Assembly: GCA_001885315.1 (NCBI GenBank)
Contig: MLPZ01000015.1
Coordinates: 1-64,000 of the forward strand
DNA length: 64,000 bases
Direction of reading: 5' to 3'
From: Treponema sp. CETP13
Lineage (GTDB): Bacteria > Spirochaetota > Spirochaetia > Treponematales > Treponemataceae
Shown here: in pieces, positions 47,163-61,553 of the stretch
How positions within the stretch are numbered: the first letter of the stretch is position 1
Layout: every line of letters starts with the position of its first letter
The notes under the pieces: model-generated
Database searches by the model: none
Told to the model about the DNA's origin: nothing
Seen by the model: only the letters and a program-made list of their open reading frames with translations
Position numbers and translations under genes: made by a program

Positions 47163-48314
47163 TTATGCTAGAGAATTATAAATTGCAACAAGATCCTTTT
47201 TTTCTAGTGGTTTTCGTGTATTAGAAGGACTTCCACTAGCAAGAGCATCCGTTGCCATTTTGTCTATAGAAATAGAAAATTTATGCATATCAATGCCGTA
47301 ACCTTGTAAACTAGGAATCTCGACCTCTTTTATTAAATTTTTAAGTGCTACAATAAAAGACTCTGCTGCATTTTTGTCACTAGAATCTTTTTCTGCTACT
47401 CCTATATGTCTTGCAATTGTTGCAAAACGATCATAACAGCCATCTAGTGCGTATTCCAAACAATTTACAATCAACATTGCATTAGAAAACCCATGTGGTA
47501 CATGAAAAAGAGCCCCAATAGGACGAGACATTCCATGAACAACAGTAACAGAGGAATTGTTTATACAAATTCCTGCTTCATATGCTGCTAGTGCCATTTC
47601 ACTCCGAGCTTTTTTATCACTCCCGTCTTTATATGCAATAGGCAAATACGTAAAAATACGCTTTATTGCAGAAAGAGCAAAAACATCTGTTACAGGAGTT
47701 GCTTTTTTTGAGGTATACGCTTCGACTGCATGTGTAAGAGCATCTATTCCTGTTGCAGAAGTAACCTTTTGAGGAGCCGAATACGAAAGTGATGGATCTA
47801 CTATTGCTAATGCAGGTAGTAAAACTTCCCCTTTTAACAACATTTTAACTTCAGTTTTTGTGTCTGTTATTACAGTAAATTTTGTAACCTCACTTCCTGT
47901 TCCAGCCGTAGTAGAAATAAGAACTAAAGGAGGTAAATCTCCAGAAATTTCTTTACCTGCATAATCTGATATTTTACCGTCAGAAACTGTCATTGCAGCA
48001 CAAGCTTTTGCACTATCTAGAGGGGACCCTCCCCCAATGCCTATAATAAAATCACATTTTTCTTTTTTGTAAGCACTAACAGACGCAATTATCATTTCAT
48101 CGGTTGGTTCACCAGTTATATCATTAAATACTGAATACAAAACAGATTGAGCTTCTAAGATATCTGTAAGCTTTGCAAGAATACCCGATTTTGTAATATG
48201 CTTTCCAGTTATAATAAGAGCTTTTTTACCTATCGTTGCTATTTTTTCTGCAGAATTTTCTAAGGCATTTTCGCCCATTATCGCACACTGTGCAGTAGTA
48301 AATTGTGTTGACAT
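47163..48314 (-). CDS. Iron-containing alcohol dehydrogenase (candidate malonate-semialdehyde reductase)
   Basis: A 383-residue group III alcohol dehydrogenase. NAD motif IIGIGGGSPLDSAKAC and metal-binding residues at ATGIDALTHAVEAY and VVHGMSRPIGALFHVPHG (three His) are intact. It is last in the pyrimidine degradation run. In that route, an aminotransferase turns beta-alanine into malonate semialdehyde, which an enzyme of this type could reduce to 3-hydroxypropionate while reoxidising NADH. This role is inferred from position. Confidence 0.88.
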   Translation of the reverse strand: MSTQFTTAQCAIMGENALENSAEKIATIGKKALIITGKHITKSGILAKLTDILEAQSVLYSVFNDITGEPTDEMIIASVSAYKKEKCDFIIGIGGGSPLDSAKACAAMTVSDGKISDYAGKEISGDLPPLVLISTTAGTGSEVTKFTVITDTKTEVKMLLKGEVLLPALAIVDPSLSYSAPQKVTSATGIDALTHAVEAYTSKKATPVTDVFALSAIKRIFTYLPIAYKDGSDKKARSEMALAAYEAGICINNSSVTVVHGMSRPIGALFHVPHGFSNAMLIVNCLEYALDGCYDRFATIARHIGVAEKDSSDKNAAESFIVALKNLIKEVEIPSLQGYGIDMHKFSISIDKMATDALASGSPSNTRKPLEKKDLVAIYNSLA

Positions 48315-48335
48315 ATTTTTTCCTTATTATTCGCT

Positions 48336-49496
48336 TTAAAGTAGTTCTTTTATTGAAAATGCTAACATGCAATGAAGTTTGTCATCCAAACTTGATAAAT
48401 TACAATTTGTTATATTTTCAATTTTTTTTATTTGGTTTGAAACGGTGTTTCTATGAATAGAAAGTGTTTGTGCTACAAGTGCAGGAGAACCATCACAATC
48501 TAAATAGGTTTGCAAAAAATCCACTAGCTTAGTATTATTTTTCTCATCGTAAATTTCTAGCGGTTTTAAATTTTCATTATAATATCCGTGTAAAATTTCT
48601 CTGTCTTTTACATCTAGAAGTAACCGATAAATATCTAAATCTGCATAAAAAACAATTTTTTTCTTTTGTTTTACAGCCATGTAATTTGCTTTTACTGATT
48701 TATCAAAATTAACAAGTTGATATTTAAATCCAGATACAACATCAGAAACGCCAATAAACAAACGATAACGACCACTACGCTTTTCAGTTATTCGAGTTAG
48801 TTCATAGCAAAAATGCCGTATTTTTTCGAAGTCCCCTTCAGTTAAGACACACACAATATTATCTTCGTAATTAAGCCACATTATATTCAGAAGCTTTTGC
48901 CCCGCAAAATGTTCAAAATCACGTTTCATGATTCTAATATTATCTAGCTGTCTACTTTTATCAAAACTTTTCATAGTTATGTTTAAATACGAAAGTTTAG
49001 AATCAGCGGCATAACCAAACCGTTGCATTGTTTTAATGCTATCATCTACATTACCAATGTTAAAAATGATATTCTTTAGCGCAACAGCAACGGTTTCCTC
49101 CACCTTTTCATGGTGAATGATTTTGCGAGAAAAATACCGAGTAATATCTACAAGTCTAGCTTTCCATGGTACCGAAAACAACGGGAAATCAACTTCATTG
49201 CAATAAGCAATTACATCATCTCCAACGCTTTCAATGTATGGGCCTACATTTACAAATAAAGCAGACACCTCAGCCCGATTAAGAGCTTTTACAAAATTTA
49301 AAAGCCAAGCAGGATTTTTATTAAGATATCCTGCTGTAAATACAAGTTCGTTTCCATGCAAAAAGTTTGCAACTTCTATATCTTCTACAATGTGAACCCA
49401 TTCTACACTGCGCTCAAACCCATTTCTACCAGCAAGAGAAGTAATACTAAAGGAGGACACTGCATTATTATATAAATTTCCAACAGTAAGCGACAT
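48336..49496 (-). CDS. PucR-family transcriptional regulator
   Basis: A 386-residue regulator. The N-terminal PucR ligand domain (residues 1-125) includes VEWVHIVEDIEVANFLHGNELVFTAGY. A middle GGDEF-like degenerate region follows, and the C-terminal HTH_30 is FLQTYLDCDGSPALVAQTLSIHRNTVSNQIKKIE. PucR proteins switch purine or nitrogen catabolic genes on when intermediates accumulate. It lies within the pyrimidine-degradation locus, 29 bases after the aminotransferase gene, so local control is likely. Confidence 0.92.
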   Translation of the reverse strand: MSLTVGNLYNNAVSSFSITSLAGRNGFERSVEWVHIVEDIEVANFLHGNELVFTAGYLNKNPAWLLNFVKALNRAEVSALFVNVGPYIESVGDDVIAYCNEVDFPLFSVPWKARLVDITRYFSRKIIHHEKVEETVAVALKNIIFNIGNVDDSIKTMQRFGYAADSKLSYLNITMKSFDKSRQLDNIRIMKRDFEHFAGQKLLNIMWLNYEDNIVCVLTEGDFEKIRHFCYELTRITEKRSGRYRLFIGVSDVVSGFKYQLVNFDKSVKANYMAVKQKKKIVFYADLDIYRLLLDVKDREILHGYYNENLKPLEIYDEKNNTKLVDFLQTYLDCDGSPALVAQTLSIHRNTVSNQIKKIENITNCNLSSLDDKLHCMLAFSIKELL

Positions 49497-49525
49497 CCAT
49501 CTTTCCTCCTAAAGCATTATTGTAA

Positions 49526-50839
49526 TTAGATTTCTGCTAAAACCTCTTCTAACTTTACCAGTTCTTCTTTTATTTGTTCAATAGTAATAATAAGAGGAGG
49601 ATTAACAAAAATCATATTTTCATGAGAATAAGTCATAAATCCTTTAGCTTTTAATTTACCAACTAATTTACTCATAACACCTTCTGGATCATACCCATAT
49701 TCAACCAAAGGCTCTTTTGTTGTTTTGTCTTTAACTAACTCTACAGAAGAAAACAGTCCGATATGTCTAACATCCCCTACACAATCGTATTTTTCTGCTA
49801 TCTCATCAAGTCTTTTTGCAAGATATTCGCCTGATTTTTTAACATTATCTGCAATTTTAGCTTCTTCATAATAGTTAACACAAGCAACACCTGCAGCACA
49901 ACCAAGAGGATGGCCACTGTAAGTAAGTCCACACGAAAGTAAATTATCGTCAAAATATGCTGCAATTTTTGAAGAAACCGCAACTCCACCTAATGGGACA
50001 TAACCACATGTAACACCTTTTGCAAATGTTACAATATCTGGTACAACATCAAAATTTTCGAAGGCAAAACAAGTTCCGGTACGATACCATCCAGCCATAA
50101 CTTCATCAACAATCATTAAGATGCCATATTTATCACAAAGTTTGCGAACCCCTTTCATATAGCCCTTTGGTGGAATAATAACACCATTAGAGCCGGTAAT
50201 TGTTTCCATTACAATAGCTGCAATAGCATCTCTGCCTTCATATTGTATTTGCTCTTCAAGTTTATCAACATAATAGGCTACTGCATCTTCTTCGCTTTCA
50301 AAAGGTAATTTTTCACGATACAAATATGGATCAAAAAATTTGATAAATCCAGGAACACCTGGTTCCAACGCAAAGCGACGAGGTTCACCCGTAAGATTTC
50401 CAGCGCCAAAAGTCGAACCATGATAACTGCGATAGCGACTCATTATTTTGTTACGCCCAGTAAACATGCGTGCCATTTTAACAGCATTTTCGTTTGCATC
50501 AGCTCCACCATTAGTAAAAAATATTTTGCCAAAACTGTCTGGTAAAAGAGAGATAACCTTCTCGGCTAAAGTTGCACGTGAAATATCAGCATATCCTGGT
50601 CCAATATAACAGTATTGATCCACTTTTGCCTTAATGGCATCTCCAATGGCTTTGTTACCAAAACCAACATTGACGTTTACTAATTGGGAAGACATATCAG
50701 TATATCTTTTTCCATCATAATCCCAAAAATATATACCTTCAGCTTTTTGCACTGCTATAGGGTTTATATTTGCCTGCTTGCTCCATGATTGGAGGTTGTA
50801 TTTTTTTTGTTTTTCTGTAATTTCTTTTCCAGTCATCAT
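49526..50839 (-). CDS. Class III aminotransferase, beta-alanine:pyruvate type
   Basis: A 437-residue PLP enzyme. PLP-lysine in VTFAKGVTCGYVPLGGVAVS, Asp in LMIVDEVMAGWYRTG, and the phosphate-binding GGADANENAVKMAR. The family transfers amino groups of beta-alanine, 4-aminobutyrate or taurine-like amines to pyruvate. Position directly after the beta-alanine-forming amidohydrolase gives the substrate. Gene is intact; GGAAA precedes the ATG. Confidence 0.9.
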   Translation of the reverse strand: MMTGKEITEKQKKYNLQSWSKQANINPIAVQKAEGIYFWDYDGKRYTDMSSQLVNVNVGFGNKAIGDAIKAKVDQYCYIGPGYADISRATLAEKVISLLPDSFGKIFFTNGGADANENAVKMARMFTGRNKIMSRYRSYHGSTFGAGNLTGEPRRFALEPGVPGFIKFFDPYLYREKLPFESEEDAVAYYVDKLEEQIQYEGRDAIAAIVMETITGSNGVIIPPKGYMKGVRKLCDKYGILMIVDEVMAGWYRTGTCFAFENFDVVPDIVTFAKGVTCGYVPLGGVAVSSKIAAYFDDNLLSCGLTYSGHPLGCAAGVACVNYYEEAKIADNVKKSGEYLAKRLDEIAEKYDCVGDVRHIGLFSSVELVKDKTTKEPLVEYGYDPEGVMSKLVGKLKAKGFMTYSHENMIFVNPPLIITIEQIKEELVKLEEVLAEI

Positions 50840-50859: not shown

Positions 50860-52122
50860 TTAGTCTTTATCTGCTTTTAACACTGCATTCATCATAACTG
50901 TTGCACCAGCTGTGCATTGTTCAGGGGAAGAATATTCTGGTTCACAATGGCTTAATCCATCTTTTGATTGAACAAAAATCATTGTAGTTGGCATCATGTA
51001 AGCTGCAAATTGTGCATCATGTCCTGCTCCAGAATGAATGTACTGATGTGAAACCCCTGCTTCTTCTGCTGCTTCTTTTACATACGAAACTAGTTTTTTA
51101 TCCCAGTAAACAGTATCACGATTCCAAGCTTTTTCTACAGTACAAGAGCAACCACTCCATTCTTTATCTGCACACCCTTTAACAATAGCAAGAACTTTAT
51201 CAAGAACTTTTGGATCTTCGTGTCGCACATCAATACAAAAATCAAAGTAATCTGGAACACAAGTATGAACACAAGGATGGCAAGAAACTTCGCCTGTAGT
51301 GTATACAAGTTCTGGATGCCCAAGGGCGTCGATTTCTTTATGTAAATACACAATTGCTTGTGATGCTGCAAAAAATGCATCTTTACGTTTTGGCATAGGA
51401 AATGTTCCTGCATGAGTTGTTTGTCCATAAAATTTTACCCGATAATTAAACATACCAAGAACACAATCTACAACTCCAACATCATTTCCCGCATCTTCTA
51501 GAATAGGGCCTTGTTCAATATGAGTTTCAAACATGCACATATAATCGTCTGGATTTAAGCGATTTTTTTCATCACCTTTAAAACCTGATTTTTCAAGAGC
51601 TTCACCAAAAGTAGTTTTACCTTCTAAAACGTCTTTAGTTGCAAGCATATCTTCTTTTTTAAATTTTTCTTTAATATCGTCTGGAAGATAATCATAACAA
51701 ACAATACCCGAACACATCATAGCTGGTGGATATAAAGATCCTTCTTCGTTTGTCCAAACCATTGCAGTGATAGGATGTTTATGTTCGATTTTTTCTGCAT
51801 GAATGGTTTCTAAAGCTTCCATTGCACTCATTACACCTAAAATTCCGTCATAGTTTCCACCATTTTTAACAGAGTCAACATGAGAAGCCATTACAATACG
51901 TTTTGCATCTGGATCAGTTCCTGGAAGAGTCGCATACAAGTTAGCAACATCATCAATTTCAATTTTAGCACCAATAGCTTCCATGCGTTTAATAAACTCA
52001 TTGCGAGCCAAGATTGCTTCGGGTGAAAGAGAATAACGTGTTATTCCACCATGCCCTGCATCACCATACTTTGCAAAAGTGATAATTTTATCTGTCATTC
52101 TTTCTAAACTGCATTTATACAT
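50860..52122 (-). CDS. Zn-dependent M20 amidohydrolase (N-carbamoyl-beta-alanine / allantoate type)
   Basis: A 420-residue enzyme of the hydantoinase/carbamoylase family. Metal ligands are visible in MASHVDSVKNGGNYDGILGV (His, Asp), WTNEEGSLYPP (Glu) and IHSGAGHDAQFAA; FETHIEQGPILEDAG has the substrate-binding Glu. It would cleave N-carbamoyl-beta-alanine to beta-alanine, CO2 and ammonia, between dihydropyrimidinase and aminotransferase. A strong GGAGG precedes the start. Allantoate amidohydrolase activity cannot be excluded. Confidence 0.9.
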   Translation of the reverse strand: MYKCSLERMTDKIITFAKYGDAGHGGITRYSLSPEAILARNEFIKRMEAIGAKIEIDDVANLYATLPGTDPDAKRIVMASHVDSVKNGGNYDGILGVMSAMEALETIHAEKIEHKHPITAMVWTNEEGSLYPPAMMCSGIVCYDYLPDDIKEKFKKEDMLATKDVLEGKTTFGEALEKSGFKGDEKNRLNPDDYMCMFETHIEQGPILEDAGNDVGVVDCVLGMFNYRVKFYGQTTHAGTFPMPKRKDAFFAASQAIVYLHKEIDALGHPELVYTTGEVSCHPCVHTCVPDYFDFCIDVRHEDPKVLDKVLAIVKGCADKEWSGCSCTVEKAWNRDTVYWDKKLVSYVKEAAEEAGVSHQYIHSGAGHDAQFAAYMMPTTMIFVQSKDGLSHCEPEYSSPEQCTAGATVMMNAVLKADKD

Positions 52123-52176
52123 ATATAACCTCCATATGTAATAATTTATAATTAGTAAATAGCAAAAGTTACTTAA

Positions 52177-52587
52177 CTATTCGTTATATGGGTGAATACA
52201 GTTCTTTAATAACGCATCCACTTCTTCATTAGTTACCTGATAGAACATCTCTCCACCATCATTTAATACAATTGATAAAAGGAAGGCGTCATCCCAATCT
52301 GTAAGGTAAATATGTCTAATAATATCTGTTCCATCCATACGACGACGTTCACTTTTGTTTATCGCAATAAGTTTTTCTCCCATTCGTATAAACGCATGTA
52401 CAAAGCAGCCACCAGAAAGACAATATTCAGTTGGAGGGCGATGATCCTTGTTAAATTCTATTGTTACTGGTATTTCTGTAATGCCCCCACTTATAGCCCG
52501 AATTTCACTATTAATAATCCTAAAATTAGCAACCGGCAATATGCTCTCTAATGCTATTTTTTTAGCTTTCTTAAATCTGTTAATCAC
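52177..52587 (-). CDS. Uncharacterised 136-residue protein of the pyrimidine locus
   Basis: I do not recognise this family. It is a soluble mixed alpha/beta protein with no signal or Cys motif; notable segments are SGGCFVHAFIRMGEKLIAIN, ERRRMDGTDIIRHIYLTDWDDAFLL and CIHPYNE at the end. Its ATG overlaps the preA stop (ATGA), and 54 bases separate it from the amidohydrolase gene, so it is made with the enzymes. It may be a small accessory or regulatory subunit, but that is inference from coupling alone. Confidence 0.8.
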   Translation of the reverse strand: MINRFKKAKKIALESILPVANFRIINSEIRAISGGITEIPVTIEFNKDHRPPTEYCLSGGCFVHAFIRMGEKLIAINKSERRRMDGTDIIRHIYLTDWDDAFLLSIVLNDGGEMFYQVTNEEVDALLKNCIHPYNE

Positions 52588-54116
52588 GCCTGTACCTCCT
52601 GTTCGAAAGTCATTTTTTGCTTTTGCTGTAATCTAGGTTTTGCAATCCGTTTGCTATCACTTATTGCACCTACTGGACAAACCAATTTGCAAAGATGACA
52701 TCCAACACATTTGTTTCCTAAAAGTTTTGGAGTTCTAGATTCAACATCAAAAGAAATCGCTTGATGACCCGCATCGCTACATGCAATATAACAACGACCA
52801 CAGCCAAGGCATTTTTCTTGATTAAACTTTGGGAAAACTATCGTTTCTCGATTTAATTTATCTGAGGAAATAACATTCTTATTTGCCATTCCAACCATTT
52901 CTGAAATAGAATTAATTTTATGCTCAACCATATAAGTCTCTATTCCAGCTTTTAAATCGTTAATGATCCGATATCCATATTGCATAACCGATGTTGTAAT
53001 TTGCACATTGCCACAACCAAGAGCAATAAACTCCAAAGCATCACGCCAAGTTTCTATGCCGCCCATGCCACTTAAAGGAATGTCTTTTAATTGTTTGCAA
53101 TCTGCCATTTCACTTATAAATCGCAATGCAATTGGTTTTACAGCTTTCCCAGAATACCCAGAAATAGAAGATTTACCGTTTATGTTTGGAAGAGCAACCA
53201 TTGTTTCTAAATCGAGCCCCGAAAGACTTTTAATTGTATTTATTGCTGCAATACCATCCGCACCACCTTCTACAGCTGCTATTGCAGGAATTTCCATATT
53301 ACCGATATTTGGCGTCATTTTTGCCAAAACAGGAAGACTTGTTCCTTTTTTAACTAATTCGGTGTATCGTTTAACAAGTTCTGGATTTTGACCAACATCA
53401 GATCCTAATCCGTCTCCACTCATATGAGGACATGAAAAGTTACATTCAATAATATCCGCACCAGCCTGTTCTGAAAGTTGCGCTAATTTTGTCCATTCTT
53501 CGTCGGATTGCCCCATGATTGAAACAACCATAATCTTTTGGGGAAAATCACGTTTTAAATCCGAAATAAATTGAAGATTTTCTGTAAGGCTGTGTTCGGC
53601 AATTTGTTCTAGATTTCTAAAACCTATAAAAGGAGTCCCTTCTTTGCGTACAGTAGAAAAACGAGGAGAAACTTCTTTAGGTGTTAAGAACCCAATGGTT
53701 TTAAAAACCACTCCTGCCCATCCCATTTCTAAAGCGTTTTTGCACATTTCGTAATTACTTGCTACGACAGAAGAAGACAAGAAAAATGGATTTTCACATG
53801 CAACACCCATAAAAGAACATGACAAATCTGCCTTTCGCGGTTGTAAATCCCAACCTGAAAGAACCGAAGCTGTCTCTTTTATTCGCATTGGAAAATCATA
53901 ATGAATACAAGCTTTTTCGCATTTTGCATCACAATCTGCACAAAGAGTTGGATTAAAGTTTTTCCCAACTCTTTGATTTTCAAATCGTAAAGAAAACAAC
54001 ATTGCTGCAGGATCATTAGATTTATCACATGCCGCTGTACAAGGTGCATTGTTGCAGAGTAAGCAGCGATTTGCTTCGTTTGTGGGTAATTTATTTTTAT
54101 AGTTTACTGTGTCCAT
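52584..54116 (-). CDS. preA: Dihydropyrimidine dehydrogenase PreA-like, with N-terminal Cys-rich domain
   Basis: A 510-residue protein. Residues 1-95 carry a GltD/PreT-type Fe-S motif set (CLLCNNAPCTAACDKSND; CADCDAKCEKACIHYDFP). Residues 98-410 form the FMN barrel with the catalytic-Cys region ECNFSCPHMSGDGLG and GMGGIETWRDALEFIALG. The C-terminus has two ferredoxin motifs (CLGCGRCYIACSDAG; CVGCHLCKLVCPVGA). It reduces uracil/thymine, or runs in reverse. A PreT-like FAD/NAD(P)H subunit is not present in the locus. Confidence 0.92.
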   Translation of the reverse strand: MDTVNYKNKLPTNEANRCLLCNNAPCTAACDKSNDPAAMLFSLRFENQRVGKNFNPTLCADCDAKCEKACIHYDFPMRIKETASVLSGWDLQPRKADLSCSFMGVACENPFFLSSSVVASNYEMCKNALEMGWAGVVFKTIGFLTPKEVSPRFSTVRKEGTPFIGFRNLEQIAEHSLTENLQFISDLKRDFPQKIMVVSIMGQSDEEWTKLAQLSEQAGADIIECNFSCPHMSGDGLGSDVGQNPELVKRYTELVKKGTSLPVLAKMTPNIGNMEIPAIAAVEGGADGIAAINTIKSLSGLDLETMVALPNINGKSSISGYSGKAVKPIALRFISEMADCKQLKDIPLSGMGGIETWRDALEFIALGCGNVQITTSVMQYGYRIINDLKAGIETYMVEHKINSISEMVGMANKNVISSDKLNRETIVFPKFNQEKCLGCGRCYIACSDAGHQAISFDVESRTPKLLGNKCVGCHLCKLVCPVGAISDSKRIAKPRLQQKQKMTFEQEVQA

Positions 54117-54150
54117 AATTCCGTCCTTTAAAGTTCAATATTTATCAAAC

Positions 54151-55503
54151 TTAGCTTAATTTTCGTTTTATAAACTTTCCGTAACCTGCTTCACCTAAAA
54201 ACTCTCCATCCTTATAAACCATACGACCTCGTGAGAATGTCATTTCTGGATATCCCGTAAGTTTTGTTCCTTCCCAGATTGTATGGTCATAATCAGAATG
54301 CATAGCATCGCACGTTACCGTAAAGTCTTTTTTGGGGTCGTAAATGACAATATCTGCATCTTTGCCAACTGCTAAACTACCTTTATCTTTACATCCAAAT
54401 ATTTTTGCAGGATTTGAAGAACAAACTTCAACTGCTTTATTAAAAGTAATTTCACCTTTGTTTGCTTTGTCGAGCATGTACGGATACATGTTCTCAACAC
54501 CAGCACAACCGTTTGGTATTTTACTAAAATCGTCTTTTCCCCAGTCTTTTTCACTTTGCATAAATGGACAATGATCTGTTGCAACAACATCAATATCACC
54601 ACGTTTTAGAGCAGACCACAAAGCATCTTGGCTTTCTTGCCCTTTCATTGGCGGAGAACAAACAAAGTTTCTTCCATCGTCTCGTTTGTACACATCACTG
54701 GTAAAGTTTAAATACTGTGGACACGTTTCTGCAAAAATTGAATACCCTTCCTCTTTAGCTTTCGTTACAGCTTCTACACCCTGTTTATTTGCAAGATGCA
54801 CAATATACAGTTTTGCACCTGTTTCTTTTGCCCACTGAATAGCACGTAAATCTGCTTCACCTTCGACAAATTCTGGTCTAGAAAGATAATGATACCAAGG
54901 ACTTGTTTTCCCTTCTGCCAAAAACTTTTTAACGTTATAGTTAACCATTTCGTTGTTTTCTGCATGTACCGAAATCATCGCCCCAATTTCTTTTGATTTT
55001 TGAAGCACTTGATAAAATACACCATCTGAAACACCAAAATCGTAAACCATAAAGACTTTAAATGAAGGAACACCATATTCAACCGCATCTTTCATTGAAT
55101 CCAAAAGCTCTCCGTGAATATCTTTTACACCAATATGAAAAGCATAATCTACTGCAGCTTGGGGAGCAGCTATTGCATCACGACGTTTAATAACATCTAC
55201 CATGGGTTCATCAAAATCTTGCAATGCAAAATCAAAAACAGTTGTAGTTCCACCACAAGCGGCTGCTCTAGTTCCTGCAAAATAATCATCAGAAGAAATA
55301 GTTCCGCCAAAAGGCATAGCAAGATGCGTATGAGCATCGATTGCTCCCGGAAGTACATATTTCCCTTTAGCATCTATTACTTTTGTGGCATTTGTGCCTA
55401 AATCACTACCAATATCCGTAATTTTTCCATCACTAACTGCAATATCAGCCTTATATGTTTCTGACGCGGTTACTAACAGTCCGTTTTTAATAATTAAATC
55501 CAT
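54151..55503 (-). CDS. hydA: Dihydropyrimidinase (D-hydantoinase)
   Basis: A 450-residue cyclic amidohydrolase that opens dihydrouracil to N-carbamoyl-beta-alanine. Zinc ligands: DAHTHLAMPFGG (HxH), carbamylated Lys in GVPSFKVFMVYD, ISVHAENNEM, YIVHLANKQGV and Asp in VVATDHCPFMQ. Length is normal. It is the first catabolic enzyme gene after the importer genes and precedes preA. Confidence 0.95.
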   Translation of the reverse strand: MDLIIKNGLLVTASETYKADIAVSDGKITDIGSDLGTNATKVIDAKGKYVLPGAIDAHTHLAMPFGGTISSDDYFAGTRAAACGGTTTVFDFALQDFDEPMVDVIKRRDAIAAPQAAVDYAFHIGVKDIHGELLDSMKDAVEYGVPSFKVFMVYDFGVSDGVFYQVLQKSKEIGAMISVHAENNEMVNYNVKKFLAEGKTSPWYHYLSRPEFVEGEADLRAIQWAKETGAKLYIVHLANKQGVEAVTKAKEEGYSIFAETCPQYLNFTSDVYKRDDGRNFVCSPPMKGQESQDALWSALKRGDIDVVATDHCPFMQSEKDWGKDDFSKIPNGCAGVENMYPYMLDKANKGEITFNKAVEVCSSNPAKIFGCKDKGSLAVGKDADIVIYDPKKDFTVTCDAMHSDYDHTIWEGTKLTGYPEMTFSRGRMVYKDGEFLGEAGYGKFIKRKLS

Positions 55504-55584: not shown

Positions 55585-56691
55585 CTATTTTTTGTATACA
55601 AGAAGTAATCCTGATCGTTGATAAATCTGTGCAACTTCTAAAAGTCCCATTCCTGCAGCATCTGCAGAAATCATGTTAGAAACCCAGGTAACACCAAAAT
55701 CAACAGTACCATTGTAAACAGCAGTTGTTTCTGCAATATCTCCACCACCAGGAACAATTGTTACATCCAGCCCAAGATCTGAGTAATAGCCTTTATCAAG
55801 TGCCATGTAATAACCCATAAATTGACTCTGTGGTAACCACTTAAGTTGTACTTTAACGGCTGTTTTTTCAGGAGTTCCCAAATCACTTCCATCAGTAGAT
55901 GCAGTCGCAGCTTCCCAGTATGCAGTATCACGAATATCATCAAGCGTTAAACTTGCAAGTTTATCTGCAGCTTGGCTATCATCAAGTTTGATATAAGCTT
56001 GTGCAAGTTCAAGAGTCTGTTGCATTGCATCATCATCCATATATCCATAGTTTGAAACAGGATTTCCATCAGTATCAGTTTCTACAAGTTTTTTTACTTC
56101 ACTGGCCATATACAACTGGTGGCCTGAAGAAACAGATGATCCATATTTATACACAACCTCAGCAGCTTCTTCGGGATCTGCACAAGCATCTGCCCAACCT
56201 TTAAGAGATGCATACACAAATGCTTTTACTGTATTTGGATTTGCTTCTGCAAACTCCTTAGAACAAAAAAGGTTATCTTCTAACATGGCAACACCTTCAT
56301 CATTCATGTCAATTACATCAACATCATCGCCATATCCATAAGCTCCATCGTAATCATTTTTTACAAGACCTAATTCATTGTAAGTCATTGCTGATGCAAG
56401 AGTTATAGACCCATCATCGAATCCATCCATAGTAAAATCCTGGCTTAAAAACTCAAGTGGAAGATTATATTTAGCAAGTAATGCTAAAATTTCATACTCA
56501 TTACCAAGACCCCAGTTTCCTATTTTCCCAGCTGCAGAAGCTGCAATTACGCGATCTTTATCGCTCATAGCTACAGAAGTTGTAGCTGGTTCTGTTTTAG
56601 TACTTTCTTTTTTTGTACAAGCAGTAAAACTTAGGATAACAGTGGCTGTAAGCGCAATAAATGCTGCTTTTTCAATGCTTTTTCTTTTCAT
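55585..56691 (-). CDS. NMT1/THI5-like ABC importer binding lipoprotein, circularly permuted
   Basis: A 368-residue lipoprotein (lipobox TAC, Cys at 25). The order of the binding fold is rotated. Residues 55-262 correspond to the usual C-terminal two thirds (GKIGNWGLGNEYEILALLAK; SAMTYNELGLVKN; VIDMNDEGVAMLEDNLF; ends AYWEAA). After a ~16-residue linker, residues 279-368 are the part that is normally N-terminal (VKVQLKWLPQSQFMGYYMAL; YNGTVDFGVTWVSN; QIYQRSGLLLVYKK) and the protein stops there. It is one uninterrupted frame with a normal signal. It probably still folds, with the break at the hinge between lobes. Ligand: likely a pyrimidine or hydantoin-like ring. Confidence 0.9.
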   Translation of the reverse strand: MKRKSIEKAAFIALTATVILSFTACTKKESTKTEPATTSVAMSDKDRVIAASAAGKIGNWGLGNEYEILALLAKYNLPLEFLSQDFTMDGFDDGSITLASAMTYNELGLVKNDYDGAYGYGDDVDVIDMNDEGVAMLEDNLFCSKEFAEANPNTVKAFVYASLKGWADACADPEEAAEVVYKYGSSVSSGHQLYMASEVKKLVETDTDGNPVSNYGYMDDDAMQQTLELAQAYIKLDDSQAADKLASLTLDDIRDTAYWEAATASTDGSDLGTPEKTAVKVQLKWLPQSQFMGYYMALDKGYYSDLGLDVTIVPGGGDIAETTAVYNGTVDFGVTWVSNMISADAAGMGLLEVAQIYQRSGLLLVYKK

Positions 56692-56744: not shown

Positions 56745-57557
56745 TTATTTTCTAGTTCTATTTTTCATAACAACGCTTTCAACAAAAAGCAATAAAACGT
56801 AAAGTACAATTCCAAGAAGACACGATACGATTATGTATGCCCATGCTGTCGCAAATTGCGCTGTTACAACATTTTCTCTTATCTGACGACCAACACCGAT
56901 TACCTTTTCTGAAAAATATTCTGTAACCAATGCAGAAATAATACTTCCCGGAAGACTAACCCTTAATGCGGTAAACACATACGGGACACTATTTGGGAGT
57001 CGCAATTTTCTAAAAATCGTAAAATTACTTGCTGCATATGTTTTCATAAGATCACTCGAAAACGGCTTTAATTCTGTTAAGCCTCTATATGCATTCACAG
57101 ACATACCTGCAATACAAACAATCATTACTACCAATGTTTTTGCAAACATTGAACGAAAATCTACACTATCAGAAATTTGCTTAGTCAAATTGTTAACAAC
57201 CGGGGCTAAGGCAACAATAGGGACCGCGTTAAAAGCTGCCGCTAATGTTATTCCTCCAGCCCCCCATTTTTTATGTTCCGCTGCAATAATCGCAACGCCA
57301 TATCCAATTAAAGAACCAAACAACAATCCTGTTAGAGCTACAAAAACAGTAGCTTTAAGATTTAACAAAACTTTTGAGATATTATCTCCAATTATCGAGT
57401 TAATTCGACTCGGTGGAGGTAATGTATTTGTATCCGTACTAAGAAGAACATTTAATATGCCTCCCTGCCACAAAACAAAAATTAGTATTCCAAAAAGTAC
57501 AGGAAACAGAATTGTTGACACTGCATTCCAACGTTCATTTATTTGTTTTCTAATCAC
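56745..57557 (-). CDS. ABC importer permease (second), NMT1/SsuC type
   Basis: A 270-residue permease with about six membrane spans and the binding-protein-dependent transport motif. The EAA-like loop is MKTYAASNFTIFRKLRLPNSVPYVFTALRVSLPGSIISALVTEY. It pairs with the neighbouring permease and the ATPase. It starts three bases after that permease gene ends. Confidence 0.92.
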   Translation of the reverse strand: MIRKQINERWNAVSTILFPVLFGILIFVLWQGGILNVLLSTDTNTLPPPSRINSIIGDNISKVLLNLKATVFVALTGLLFGSLIGYGVAIIAAEHKKWGAGGITLAAAFNAVPIVALAPVVNNLTKQISDSVDFRSMFAKTLVVMIVCIAGMSVNAYRGLTELKPFSSDLMKTYAASNFTIFRKLRLPNSVPYVFTALRVSLPGSIISALVTEYFSEKVIGVGRQIRENVVTAQFATAWAYIIVSCLLGIVLYVLLLFVESVVMKNRTRK

Positions 57558-57560
57558 AAT

Positions 57561-58391
57561 TTACCTCTTACATGCTCGTTCTGCTTTTTTATGGGGTGAA
57601 AAAACATCTTCAATAACTCCCATAAGTACATAACTCAAAATCCCTATTGCTGCACTAATTATGACAATCAGCCAGAATACATATCGCGTCATTGCACCTT
57701 TCAATGACTGCGATAACAAACAACCAAGACCTATACCACCTTGCAAAGTATCAACCAAAATAGAAGCCGTAATAGCAAGTGGGGCAGAAACCTTTAATCC
57801 AGTAAAAAAGTACGGAATTGTTGAAGGAATAAGCATTTTTATGTATATTTGCCACTTTTTTGCAGCATATGAATACATAAGCTCATGTTTTTCTTCCTCT
57901 ACAGCCTCAAATCCTGCAAGCGTATTTGTCGTAACCGGATAAAAAGTCAAAATAGCCGCTATGATTATTCGACTTTGATCAATATCACCGGTAAATGACA
58001 AAAGGATTGGAGCCATACCCAAAATAGGAATCATTTGAATAAGCATTAAATATGGAAATGCTATTTTTTTTATTCCTGTCGATAAACTCATAAGCAAAGC
58101 AAGTAAAAAACCAATATCAGCCCCAATTGCAAAACCTTGTGCAGAACGAATTAGTGTAACTTTTGCATTTAGCCACACAAGTTGAATCGCCGTTTCACTT
58201 CCGTTTATTTTTTTAGTATCAAAAATAGTTGCTATAATTTTCCAAAAATGTGGCAAGACCTTTTGTGGAGAACGTATATCTGGAGAAGCCTCAACTAAAA
58301 AGGCAACTATTTCCCAAATAACAAAAAAACCTAATGTCCATACAAGTGTAACCAAGTAATTTGAATTTTTTTGTTTTCTCAATTGACTCAT
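57561..58391 (-). CDS. ABC importer permease (first), NMT1/SsuC type
   Basis: A 276-residue permease with six spans (first at residues 14-34). EAA-like loop: MYSYAAKKWQIYIKMLIPSTIPYFFTGLKVSAPLAITASILVD. It lies between the ATPase and second permease, with three-base gaps on both sides. Related to, but clearly distinct from, the second permease. Confidence 0.92.
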   Translation of the reverse strand: MSQLRKQKNSNYLVTLVWTLGFFVIWEIVAFLVEASPDIRSPQKVLPHFWKIIATIFDTKKINGSETAIQLVWLNAKVTLIRSAQGFAIGADIGFLLALLMSLSTGIKKIAFPYLMLIQMIPILGMAPILLSFTGDIDQSRIIIAAILTFYPVTTNTLAGFEAVEEEKHELMYSYAAKKWQIYIKMLIPSTIPYFFTGLKVSAPLAITASILVDTLQGGIGLGCLLSQSLKGAMTRYVFWLIVIISAAIGILSYVLMGVIEDVFSPHKKAERACKR

Positions 58392-58394
58392 ACG

Positions 58395-59174
58395 CTACAC
58401 TCCTTCAAAAGATGAACGAACCTCAACAACCTTTGCCGTATATTCAGGTGTATTCTTAATTTTTATACTTCTCGGTCTCTCAAAATCTACCTCTCTAACA
58501 GCAGATAGACGGCCAGGATGAGGAGACAAAACACAAACTTTATCCGAAAGAAATACCGACTCCGAAATATTATGAGTAACAAACACAATAGTTTTATTCG
58601 TTCTTCGCCAAATATTTAGTAAATCTTCGTGTAATTGCTCCCGAGTAAACTCATCTAATGCAGAAAAAGGTTCATCCATAAATAATATTTCGGGACGAAG
58701 AACTAAAGCTCGCGCAATCCCAACTCTCTGTTGCATTCCTCCAGACAACTGCCCAGGATAGCTATTTATAAATTTTTGTAGACTTACCATTTCAAGCATT
58801 TCTTCTGCTCTCTCGCGGCGCTCTTTTTTTGGTACCCCCATTATTTCAAGAGGCAATTCAACATTCTTAATAACCGTTCGCCAATCGTATAAAACAGGAC
58901 TTTGAAAAACCATTCCATAACGGCCTTTAAGTCTAGCTTCCTTTGGAGTTTCGCCTCCAATACTTATCGTGCCAGATGTTGGCGTTAAAAGATCTGCCAT
59001 TATTCGAAGCAATGTTGTTTTGCCACAACCAGAAGGTCCTACTAACGAAACAAATTCACCCTTCTTAATATCTATAGATACACTTGTTAATGCAGTAATT
59101 TCTTTATCACCACCATTAAATTTCATACCAATATCTTTGAGCAAAATTTCACTTTGTATTTCTGTTACATTCAT
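58395..59174 (-). CDS. ABC importer ATP-binding protein, NMT1/SsuB type
   Basis: A 259-residue ATPase. Walker A GPSGCGKTT, signature [14 protein letters not shown], Walker B ILFMDEPFSALDE, His in VFVTHNISE. The start MNVTEIQ has AAGGAG eight bases upstream; a longer frame would start before that site. It is the first gene of the pyrimidine locus and lies right after a leader with two terminator-like hairpins. Confidence 0.93.
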   Translation of the reverse strand: MNVTEIQSEILLKDIGMKFNGGDKEITALTSVSIDIKKGEFVSLVGPSGCGKTTLLRIMADLLTPTSGTISIGGETPKEARLKGRYGMVFQSPVLYDWRTVIKNVELPLEIMGVPKKERRERAEEMLEMVSLQKFINSYPGQLSGGMQQRVGIARALVLRPEILFMDEPFSALDEFTREQLHEDLLNIWRRTNKTIVFVTHNISESVFLSDKVCVLSPHPGRLSAVREVDFERPRSIKIKNTPEYTAKVVEVRSSFEGV

Positions 59175-59202: not shown

Positions 59203-59252
59203 TAAAAAAAAGCAGAGCAAAGGACCTTTTACATTAAAGCGCCTTTGCTCTG
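59203..59252 (-). terminator. Second leader hairpin with U8 tract before the pyrimidine locus
   Basis: 11-base arms CAGAGCAAAGG / CCTTTGCTCTG enclose an 18-base loop containing a possible CTTT/AAAG inner stem, followed on the minus strand by TTTTTTTT. It lies only about 30 bases before the ATPase start, so it must be overridden for expression, or it is an attenuator. Confidence 0.8.
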
Positions 59253-59267
59253 TAAAATTAGTAAAAT

Positions 59268-59320
59268 AAAAAAAAAGGAAAGGCTGGGCAGTTCTTTAGA
59301 ACTGGCTCCATTGCCTTTCC
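59268..59320 (-). promoter_or_regulatory. Candidate riboswitch / attenuator: two-stem hairpin with U9 tract
   Basis: On the minus strand an outer stem GGAAAGGC/GCCTTTCC and an inner stem CAGTTC/GAACTG (UAAA loop) are separated by an asymmetric internal loop (AATGGAGC on one side, CCCA on the other), then nine T. This looks like a small aptamer whose outer stem doubles as a terminator. It begins within a few bases of the predicted transcription start. Small two-stem internal-loop aptamers occur before NMT1-type transporters (xanthine-sensing NMT1 motif); identity with that class is not established. Confidence 0.55.
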
Positions 59321-59331
59321 ATGTTTGAAAG

Positions 59332-59358
59332 TCTATAGACTAAAATAGTAACCGTCAA
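59332..59358 (-). promoter_or_regulatory. Possible promoter of the pyrimidine locus
   Basis: On the minus strand TTGACG and TATAGA are 15 bases apart (shorter than ideal). The expected transcript would start near 59325, just before the first leader hairpin. The rest of the gap to the chemoreceptor stop (59359-59477) has a 7-base hairpin (ATTGTGC/GCACAAT) and nothing else notable. Confidence 0.45.
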
Positions 59359-59477
59359 TTGTATTTATTTGGTCATTAGCACTGTAAAGATTGTGCATCT
59401 GCACAATAATTAGGCATTAAACTCCAATAATCGAAGTTTTAAACTTGAATTTGAAAAAATTCGATAAAATAGTTTTT

Positions 59478-61553
59478 TTACACCTTAAATAAATCAATTT
59501 CTTTACCTATGCCTAAAATTGATTTGTTTACTTCATGAGAAATATCTTTTAAACGGGTACTGGCATTTTTAATATTTTCTGTATCATCTTCCATTTGTTG
59601 CATCAATTCTTTTATTGCAAGACTGCTTTCTTGCAATAACTGCATAGCTTTTAATATCGATTTATTCCCTTCAGCCATTTCTACAGAAGCATTTTTTACT
59701 TCTGAACTACTATTGTTCATAGCCTCTAATGATTCTAAAATTTGTTTAGAACCAGATTGCTGTTCATCCATTGCAGACTTTATTTGATGTACAAGAGTAT
59801 CGGTTAATTCAATACCTTCAGAAACCATAGAAAATGATCCCTCAGATTCTGCAGATGAACTTACAACAGTTTTAATACGATCTTGAATATTTTTTAATTC
59901 AGTACTTATAGATTTTGATTGTGTTGCAGAATCTTCTGCAAGTTTTCTAATCTCGTCAGCAACAACAGAAAAACCTTTTCCTGCCTCCCCTGCATGTGCT
60001 GCTTCAATTGCGGCATTCATTGCTAAAAGATTTGTTTGAGAGGAAATCTTTTCAATAATTTTATTTGCTTCAACTAACATACCAGACTCTTCTGCAATTT
60101 GATTAATTTGCTGATTTACAAGTGTTTGTTTATCAATTCCAGTACGGGTATTTGTTTCTAGTTTTTGAAATTCTTCTGTCATCTTATCTATAGATTTATC
60201 CACAGATGAAACATTCCCAATTAGCTCTTCTACTGCTGCTGAGGCTTGCGTAACTGCCGCTACCTGATTTTGGACCATATTATCAAAAGAGTTTATGTTT
60301 TGGGAGGTTTGAGCGACAGCACTAGCAGTTTCCTCTATACTTGCAGCTTGGTCATCAATTTTTTGTTTTACTCCAATAATATTATTACTAATTTGAAGAA
60401 CAGCAGTTCCTGTTTCATCAATATCTTGTTGCAATTCTGTATTTACTTTTTCGAGAGTATCTTTTGTTTTTTTTATATTTGTAACAATCGATTGCAGTTT
60501 TTTAATAAATGCATTAAATGCATCAACTAAATGCCCAAATTCATCACCCCGAATAAGTTCTATACTTTTGGTTAAATCAGCATCACCACTGCCGACTTCG
60601 GTAATAGAATTTTCAACATTTTTTACAATTTTTATAATACCACGTAAAATAAAAAAAACTATAACTAAAATCACAATAGCAATCGAACAACTAAATAAAA
60701 TAAAAAAAATACGAATACTATCTGCTGTTTGTTGAATTTCGTTTGTAGGAACAAAAATGCAAGAAACCCAACCTGGAGTACCTTCAATAGAGTCCCAAAC
60801 GACAAGGCCATCTCCTAGTTCTTTATTATCGATAAATTGTGCCCCTTTTTCCGCTGACACTAAATTATTTGCCAGCGTTTCATCACTATAAAGCCTACTT
60901 AATTCAAGTTCACTGTTTGGGGCAGCAATAATAGTTCCTGTCCCGCCTATAATAAACATATACCCGTTTTTTCCAACAATAGTTTGTTTTGTTAAATCTC
61001 TTATTGGATCTAAACCAATCATTGCGGTAAAAAATCCAAATGTATTATTTGATTTATCTATTGCTGCACGAACAACAGGGATTACTATGTTATTTGAAGT
61101 CCGAGATACTAGTATGTCACCAACATACTGCTTTTTCCCGTCTTGTAAGATAGCTTTATAATAATCACGATCGAGGATTCCACCTGTTGAACCCACTAAT
61201 CCAGTATCACGATAGGTTGTACCATCTTTTCCGCAAAAGAACATATAATCGTAGGTTGGATTTCTTATTTCTGAATGATTTTGTAGCCACTCAATCACCT
61301 TAGTTTCATCTCCGGTTTTTACAGCATCAGATGAAGTATACACACGTAAATCAGCACTATACGTTTCGAGCCATTGAGTAACATTTTTTGCAGTTTGAGT
61401 TGCAATACTTTGTGATTGATTTATATACATCTTAGAAATAGCCGGTCGTATAATTTGCATTGTACCAATTATTAATGTTGTAAATAAAGCTATTATTACA
61501 CAACCAACTAATAAGCCTGATTTTAACAAAACACTCATTTTTTTTATTTTCAT
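59478..61553 (-). CDS. Methyl-accepting chemotaxis protein with Cache sensor
   Basis: A 691-residue chemoreceptor. TM1 is at residues ~10-32; a periplasmic dCache-type sensor (~40-275) includes [18 protein letters not shown] and [18 protein letters not shown]2 is at ~282-305; HAMP follows; the C-terminal signalling coil has the strictly conserved tip [35 protein letters not shown]. No CheR-tethering pentapeptide is seen at the C-terminus. Its ligand is unknown; being upstream of the pyrimidine locus on the same strand hints at a related nutrient, but it is a separate transcription unit. Confidence 0.95.

Follow-up and report, generated by a model that had tools for sequence, protein, structure and literature searches.

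Organization of the pyrimidine operon and its surroundings

The window analyzed here is a 64,000-nucleotide stretch of the Treponema sp. CETP13 genome (contig MLPZ01000015.1, positions 1 to 64,000). It carries on the minus strand an importer operon and genes of pyrimidine catabolism, together with a palindrome upstream of the operon promoter:

59391..59406, no strand: TTGTGCA-N2-TGCACAA, a perfect palindrome located before the promoter (genome search; comparison with L013)
58395..59174, minus strand: ATPase of an NMT1/SsuA-type ABC importer, the first regulated gene (profile match; ATG at 59174)
56745..58391, minus strand: two importer permeases (profile match)
55585..56691, minus strand: NMT1-family substrate-binding lipoprotein, circularly permuted (profile match, homologue alignment)
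50860..55503, minus strand: reductive pyrimidine catabolism genes (Pfam, NCBIfam), comprising the next four entries
54151-55503, minus strand: dihydropyrimidinase (Pfam/NCBIfam)
52584-54116, minus strand: PreA-type dihydropyrimidine dehydrogenase (Pfam/NCBIfam)
52177-52587, minus strand: 136-aa protein without a Pfam or NCBIfam match, encoded between the PreA-type dehydrogenase and amidase genes
50860-52122, minus strand: hydantoinase/carbamoylase amidase (Pfam/NCBIfam)
47163..50839, minus strand: possible remainder of the operon (Pfam/NCBIfam), comprising the next three entries
49526-50839, minus strand: aminotransferase
48336-49496, minus strand: PucR/CdaR-like regulator
47163-48314, minus strand: iron alcohol dehydrogenase

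The ATPase gene is preceded by a Shine-Dalgarno-like AAAGGAG at 59187-59181. We take the gene set to be a nitrogen-releasing reductive pyrimidine degradation pathway, presumably with a pyrimidine as the imported substrate. Judging from strand and spacing, the genes at 47163..50839 are probably cotranscribed with it. In the lipoprotein (55585-56691), the N-terminal half aligns with profile positions 96-216, whereas positions 2-80 correspond to C-terminal residues; this permuted order is kept in all 38 operon homologues with an alignable gene. The operon is adjoined by a dCache chemoreceptor gene (59478-61553, minus strand), possibly encoding a receptor for pyrimidine chemotaxis, and sequence upstream of the L013 leader resembles a chemoreceptor C terminus by eye.

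The palindrome has no other exact copy in the CETP13 genome and also lies upstream of the same operon in Defluviitalea phaphyphila (L013). It is a probable operator of a DNA-binding regulator, with the PucR/CdaR-like protein as a candidate binder. Because the palindrome recurs in Defluviitalea and the gene run includes such a regulator, control likely has two layers, with DNA as the possible target of a specific inducer and RNA as that of nitrogen status.

Two intrinsic terminators lie in the leader

The leader is bounded on the minus strand by the end of the chemoreceptor gene (59478) and the ATG of the ATPase gene (59174). It contains three main features:

59330..59358, minus strand: probable promoter TTGACG-17-TAGACT (motif match and alignment with L012)
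59268..59320, minus strand: intrinsic terminator 1, with stem, apical hairpin, and U9 (sequence, folding)
59204..59252, minus strand: intrinsic terminator 2, with an 11-pair outer stem and U8 (sequence, folding)

The 5′ arm of terminator 1 reads GGAAAGGC (59320-59313) and then AAUGGAGC (59312-59305); the apex is CAGUUC-UAAA-GAACUG (59304-59289), and the 3′ arm consists of CCCA (59288-59285), GCCUUUCC (59284-59277), and U9 (59276-59268). This is exactly the architecture given in the first-pass annotation, namely, an 8-pair stem, a AAUGGAGC/CCCA internal loop, a 6-pair stem, and U9. Terminator 2 has the annotated outer stem of 11 pairs (59252-59242 with 59223-59213), an inner stem of 4 pairs, a C, and the annotated U8 (59211-59204). 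Both consist of a stable hairpin followed by a U-run, as expected of intrinsic terminators; a simple terminator scan listed neither of them. The predicted fold of terminator 1 reached −23.8 kcal/mol, whereas shuffled sequences averaged −11.5 (z −4.6), and the whole leader gave a z of −5.7, with 0 of 200 shuffles as low in either case. These results confirm the two consecutive terminators first annotated before the importer gene.

The annotated promoter is present, but in this stretch matches of the TTGACG-17-TAGACT kind occur no more often than chance would give. What strengthens it is L012, a Pleomorphochaeta metagenome-assembled genome (MAG) that holds the nearest operon relative (permease identity, 86%): the L012 leader aligns TTGACA/TATAGA with it along with both hairpins and both U-runs. 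In this alignment, the promoter, both stems, and both U-runs were kept while the rest of the DNA diverged. We also considered the apical CAGTTC-N4-GAACTG as a DNA operator and rejected it, since the spacer is 4 nt in the window and 3 nt in L012, a difference more in keeping with an RNA stem than with a DNA site of fixed spacing.

The internal loop is the hexaloop of an alternative mini-hairpin

The first-pass annotation had proposed that the first hairpin could be a ligand-binding aptamer, belonging to the NMT1/xanthine class, to a variant with altered ligand, or to a riboswitch class of its own. On such a reading, the AAUGGAGC/CCCA internal loop would be where a pyrimidine or purine is sensed. 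The NMT1-type importer gene speaks for such a reading. According to PMC7373994, the NMT1-motif xanthine riboswitch is likewise a hairpin with a conserved asymmetric bulge and has transporter genes among its targets; on the other hand, the motif is described there from alpha-, beta-, and gamma-Proteobacteria, where it is an OFF switch acting on translation. The Rfam covariance search suggested by that annotation found no riboswitch family. In the window, no family reached its gathering score, and in the leader, up to an E value of 10, nine weak matches to unrelated families were obtained, none of them a riboswitch; we assume that the NMT1 model was among those searched.

As for the internal loop itself, its letters are as annotated, but the minimum free energy fold of terminator 1 pairs UGG with CCA and closes part of it. 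The telling structure is an alternative one: AAUGGAGC is the hexaloop of a mini-hairpin, GGC[AAUGGA]GCC, and terminator 2 holds a second mini-hairpin of the same design:

59304..59315, minus strand: ANTAR-type mini-hairpin GGC[AAUGGA]GCC, its 5′ stem in common with terminator 1 (pattern, covariation, folding)
59238..59249, minus strand: ANTAR-type mini-hairpin AGC[AAAGGC]GCU, extendable to 5 pairs, its 5′ stem in common with terminator 2 (pattern, covariation, folding)

As described for ANTAR proteins, the RNA target is a hexaloop whose first base is A and whose fourth is G; its stem has 3 or more pairs and a conserved closing pair, and its position excludes a terminator (PMC3369931, PMC8934654). 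Both mini-hairpins have an A1/G4 hexaloop closed by a C-G pair, as in those targets, on stems of 3 and 5 pairs. Between the two loops, which are 66 nt apart, stands a whole terminator. When the mini-hairpin was forced in folding calculations, terminator 1 dropped from −23.8 to −10.2 kcal/mol and terminator 2 from −21.9 to −7.3 kcal/mol.

Comparison with L012 bears on both readings. The internal loop is partly conserved there, which speaks for an aptamer; however, the CCCA side is not (UCCUC in L012), and the letters that are conserved among leaders are A1, A2, and G4 of the hexaloop. The first L012 loop has G instead of A at position 1, which counts against the ANTAR reading. A further hexaloop in terminator 2, CUUU[AAUGUA]AAAG, was treated as chance because it is not kept in L012, which has a UUUUU loop, and is not fully compatible with AGC[AAAGGC]GCU.

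The hexaloop-terminator recurs in homologous operon leaders

After Rfam gave no riboswitch family, homologous operons were collected as 42 loci from genome contigs plus matches in 10 of 98 relatives. L001 (a duplicate of L002), L008 (50 nt only), and L047 (partial gene) were left out of the leader counts, and L052 and L053 had no ATPase match. The resulting table of 48 leaders includes CETP13 and not L052; the list of 48 genomes searched for ANTAR domains does the reverse.

A terminator sits a short way upstream of the ATPase start in most homologous leaders, and the sequence of its 5′ arm can fold instead into a mini-hairpin whose loop is A-A-N-G-N-N. An A1/G4 hexaloop on at least 3 pairs was found in 37/48 leaders, compared to at most 7 for any other combination of bases at positions 1 and 4. 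With an overlapping terminator also required, 32/48 leaders were positive (other combinations, at most 7), and such a pair occurred in 119 of 3,000 random segments of the same loci, true leaders being among these. Three leaders negative by this strict rule (L027, L006, and L044) have a hexaloop visible by eye, and in L015, L017, and L050 the second pair is A-C. Among 26 distinct hairpins, 78/78 pair cells were standard, 25/26 hairpins were closed by C-G, and the second stem pair alternates between G-C and A-U; the covariation score was 0.658, compared to 0.256 for shuffled alignments, with 0/500 shuffles as high. The apical part of the terminator is unrelated in most leaders, which argues further against an aptamer. 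Thus, the loop is conserved and the stem covaries, as the first-pass annotation had asked of its proposal, but the pattern of conservation fits a protein-binding hexaloop rather than an aptamer.

These leaders also bear on another idea, in which the two hairpins constitutively end transcription of the upstream chemoreceptor gene (59478-61553) and the operon is unregulated. In its favor, the chemoreceptor gene has the same orientation, and its end is 157 nt upstream of the first hairpin. Nevertheless, L012 keeps both hairpins although no forward frame of the three runs uninterrupted across the 281 nt before the start codon, and a promoter match stands before the hexaloop in 30/32 positive leaders, at 11 to 128 nt (median, 28 nt). 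The hexaloop would moreover be left unexplained, and we judge constitutive termination very improbable.

Pattern searches were less discriminating. Raw matches to CAAAGGCG-N14-44-T6 in the 98 relatives were not above a reversed-pattern control; that search is therefore uninformative, neither for nor against. A looser pattern in the CETP13 genome hit six distinct places, and its control gave two raw matches; two of the places, L088 (over coding frames) and L094, were taken as chance. A CAATGG pattern matched the window site and further places. In the 31 ANTAR loci described below, searched with 1.5-kb flanks, there were six pattern matches, and only that in L068 is leader-like.

Other nitrogen genes carry the same element

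In CETP13, the element also occurs in the leaders of GSIII (ACAUC[AAAGGC]GAUGU), amtB-glnK (CACGUC[AAAGGC]GACGUG), asnB (GGAC[AAAGGC]GUCC), and an oppA-like binding protein gene (AAC[AAAGGA]GUU), the last two genes being named by eye. Forcing the mini-hairpin changed the predicted energy of the asnB terminator from −32.6 to −12.6 kcal/mol, that of GSIII from −21.8 to −12.1, that of amtB from −40.1 to −22.0, and that of the oppA-like gene from −19.6 to −5.9. All six CETP13 terminators are therefore weakened, and the overlap and exclusion that characterize ANTAR targets are seen here in folding calculations. Alone, the mini-hairpins are weak (−2.8 and −1.1 kcal/mol in the window; −7.4 to +1.3 over the six sites); much would therefore depend on a protein that binds each hairpin on its emergence from the polymerase.

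The GSIII leaders of 30 genomes (CETP13 and 29 relatives) provided an independent set of genes. An A1/G4 hexaloop-terminator was present in 18/30, and any other base combination was present in at most 3. Positive leaders were found in 14 of 18 genomes with ANTAR and 4 of 12 without (Fisher P = 0.024); three of these four come from drafts that are 74 to 76% complete, and the fourth, L150, looks spurious. Nine of the 30 GSIII leaders have two hexaloop-terminators, with loops 54 to 151 nt apart; these two-copy leaders, all with a layout like that of the window and from genomes of the same family, are L141, L145, L146, L151, L152, L153, L154, L160, and L161.

A single ANTAR protein co-occurs with the element

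The CETP13 genome (99.9% complete) encodes exactly one ANTAR domain (PF03861, 59.4 bits; curated cutoff, 27.3). It belongs to a 189-aa REC-ANTAR protein whose gene (L055, 7990-8559) directly follows a glnA-like synthetase gene; GSIII and an AmtB-P-II fusion are encoded a short way upstream. Two of the elements described above sit within this cluster. Among the proteins compared, its closest relatives are two Treponema MAG proteins (61 to 62%). Across 31 homologues (L055 and L056-L085), the equivalents of the RNA-contacting residues Met172 and Glu160 are present in 31/31 and that of Lys149 in 30/31, and the site of EutV Tyr164 is His in 31/31, as it is in AmiR by alignment. The CETP13 receiver keeps Asp53, Thr80, and Lys102, and its acidic pair is replaced (S8 N9). 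In the whole set, the phospho-Asp column holds Asp in 6/31 and has lost it in 25/31, and column 8 is acidic in 0/31. A glutamine synthetase gene adjoins the ANTAR gene in 27/31 loci.

An ANTAR domain is present in 39/48 genomes behind the operon loci. The strict hexaloop-terminator was found in 31/39 leaders with ANTAR in the genome, compared to 1/9 without (Fisher P = 0.00025), and the association held (P = 0.0012) when recomputed without L009-L011, whose ATPases are distant (43 to 50% identity). A phylogeny-aware test had 4 well-supported independent pairs, of which about 1.5 agreed and 0 disagreed, which is not significant and is underpowered. The sole positive leader in an ANTAR-negative genome, L033, is from a draft MAG and is nearly identical to the L031 and L034 leaders, whose genomes have ANTAR. 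Conversely, a clear hexaloop is absent from L010 and L042, whose genomes have ANTAR.

These data weigh on two alternatives. The metabolite riboswitch is hard to reconcile with the same letters recurring in CETP13 leaders of GSIII, amtB, asnB, and oppA-like genes, nontransport genes among them, and going with the presence of ANTAR genes; we give it very little credence. Another RNA-binding antiterminator or a small RNA could bind the hexaloop, with the ANTAR association due to hitchhiking, and the underpowered phylogenetic test leaves room for this, as does the indirect case for ANTAR binding. Against it, ANTAR recognition is published to depend on A1, G4, and the closing pair (PMC3369931, PMC8934654), and two elements lie within the ANTAR gene's own cluster. 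A different binder is in our view highly unlikely.

A probable tandem attenuator with one hexaloop per terminator

A protein-operated nitrogen switch rather than a metabolite riboswitch is thus the most likely identity of the leader. More specifically, it is very likely a tandem ANTAR-type transcription attenuator with single-hexaloop terminators, a model in which ANTAR binding and its direction, antitermination, are inferred. The broader outline of the first-pass annotation, a regulated leader with two default-off terminators before an NMT1-type importer and a nitrogen-releasing pyrimidine-ring operon, agrees with this model.

By default, RNA polymerase would stop at one of the two terminators. 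When nitrogen is limiting, the presumed signal, the only REC-ANTAR protein of the genome, from the GSIII, amtB-glnK, and glnA-I cluster, would bind the A1/G4 hexaloops, each of which emerges first in the 5′ arm of its terminator. The mini-hairpin would then sequester that arm so that neither terminator forms, the importer and pyrimidine operon would be transcribed, and ring nitrogen would be released. Two terminators in series would tighten the OFF state; a further role of the first hexaloop may be recruitment for the second. Sensing would fall to a degenerate receiver; that it proceeds through glutamine synthetase or P-II is a guess.

A close published counterpart is EutVW and the eut operon of Enterococcus faecalis, which shares the A1/G4 hexaloop, the closing pair, and a stem of at least 3 bp (PMC3369931, PMC8934654), as well as a hexaloop in the 5′ arm of the terminator, a REC-ANTAR protein, and termination by default. 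There, two adjacent hexaloops with a linker of 5 to 12 nt are both required, and deletion of P1 or changes to the linker cut induction (PMC3369931); a linker 20 nt longer abolished antitermination in vitro (PMC8934654). In the structure reported in 2022, a Met plugs the hexaloop and a Glu holds G4, and the paper left the question of why two loops are needed if the dimer binds one at a time (PMC8934654). In contrast, the leader described here has one hexaloop per terminator, no adjacent P1, and loops 66 nt apart, well outside a 5- to 12-nt linker; the receiver is without the acidic pair, and the regulon comprises general nitrogen assimilation and pyrimidine catabolism. An A1/G4 hexaloop within 25 nt upstream, where P1 would lie, was found in 0/32 positive leaders, and one just downstream was found in 2/32; with the promoter match at a median of 28 nt before the hairpin, there is often no room for P1. 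Since loop, stem, terminator overlap, and co-occurrence agree with an ANTAR target and the dual-loop arrangement does not, we call the element a variant of the ANTAR target.

Antitermination of nitrogen-scavenging operons by ANTAR proteins is also known from AmiR-amiE and NasR-nasF, but those leaders are reported as dual hairpins (PMC3369931). The ANTAR regulon of Desulfotomaculum acetoxidans similarly has several attenuators per unit (13 in six) and nitrogen genes, yet was found with a dual-hairpin model, according to the same source (PMC3369931). The literature searched, the main text of mainly open-access papers, yielded no description of single-hexaloop ANTAR attenuators, and within that scope, the phrase "single hexaloop" appeared with ANTAR only in the 2022 structure paper (PMC8934654).

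The proteins of this branch have His for EutV Tyr164 and, probably, a mostly nonphosphorylatable receiver. The AmiR and NasR systems differ in sensing as well, which goes through AmiC or a nitrate domain. In clostridial glnA-nitR, the ANTAR gene directly follows the glutamine synthetase gene, as in CETP13, and we know of no single-hexaloop description of its RNA target.

An ANTAR-type attenuator would account for a conserved leader without an Rfam match and extend ANTAR control to reductive pyrimidine catabolism. We consider it probable, with some reserve, that in a glutamine synthetase-linked ANTAR branch of Treponema-like spirochetes and Clostridia, one hexaloop in the arm of the terminator suffices and that such elements govern nitrogen regulons, often two in series. 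If true, this would overturn the rule of two adjacent hexaloops and explain why dual-hairpin models would miss single-hexaloop attenuators. Leaders with one hexaloop per terminator, from gut spirochetes and Clostridia, make the two-loop question directly testable.
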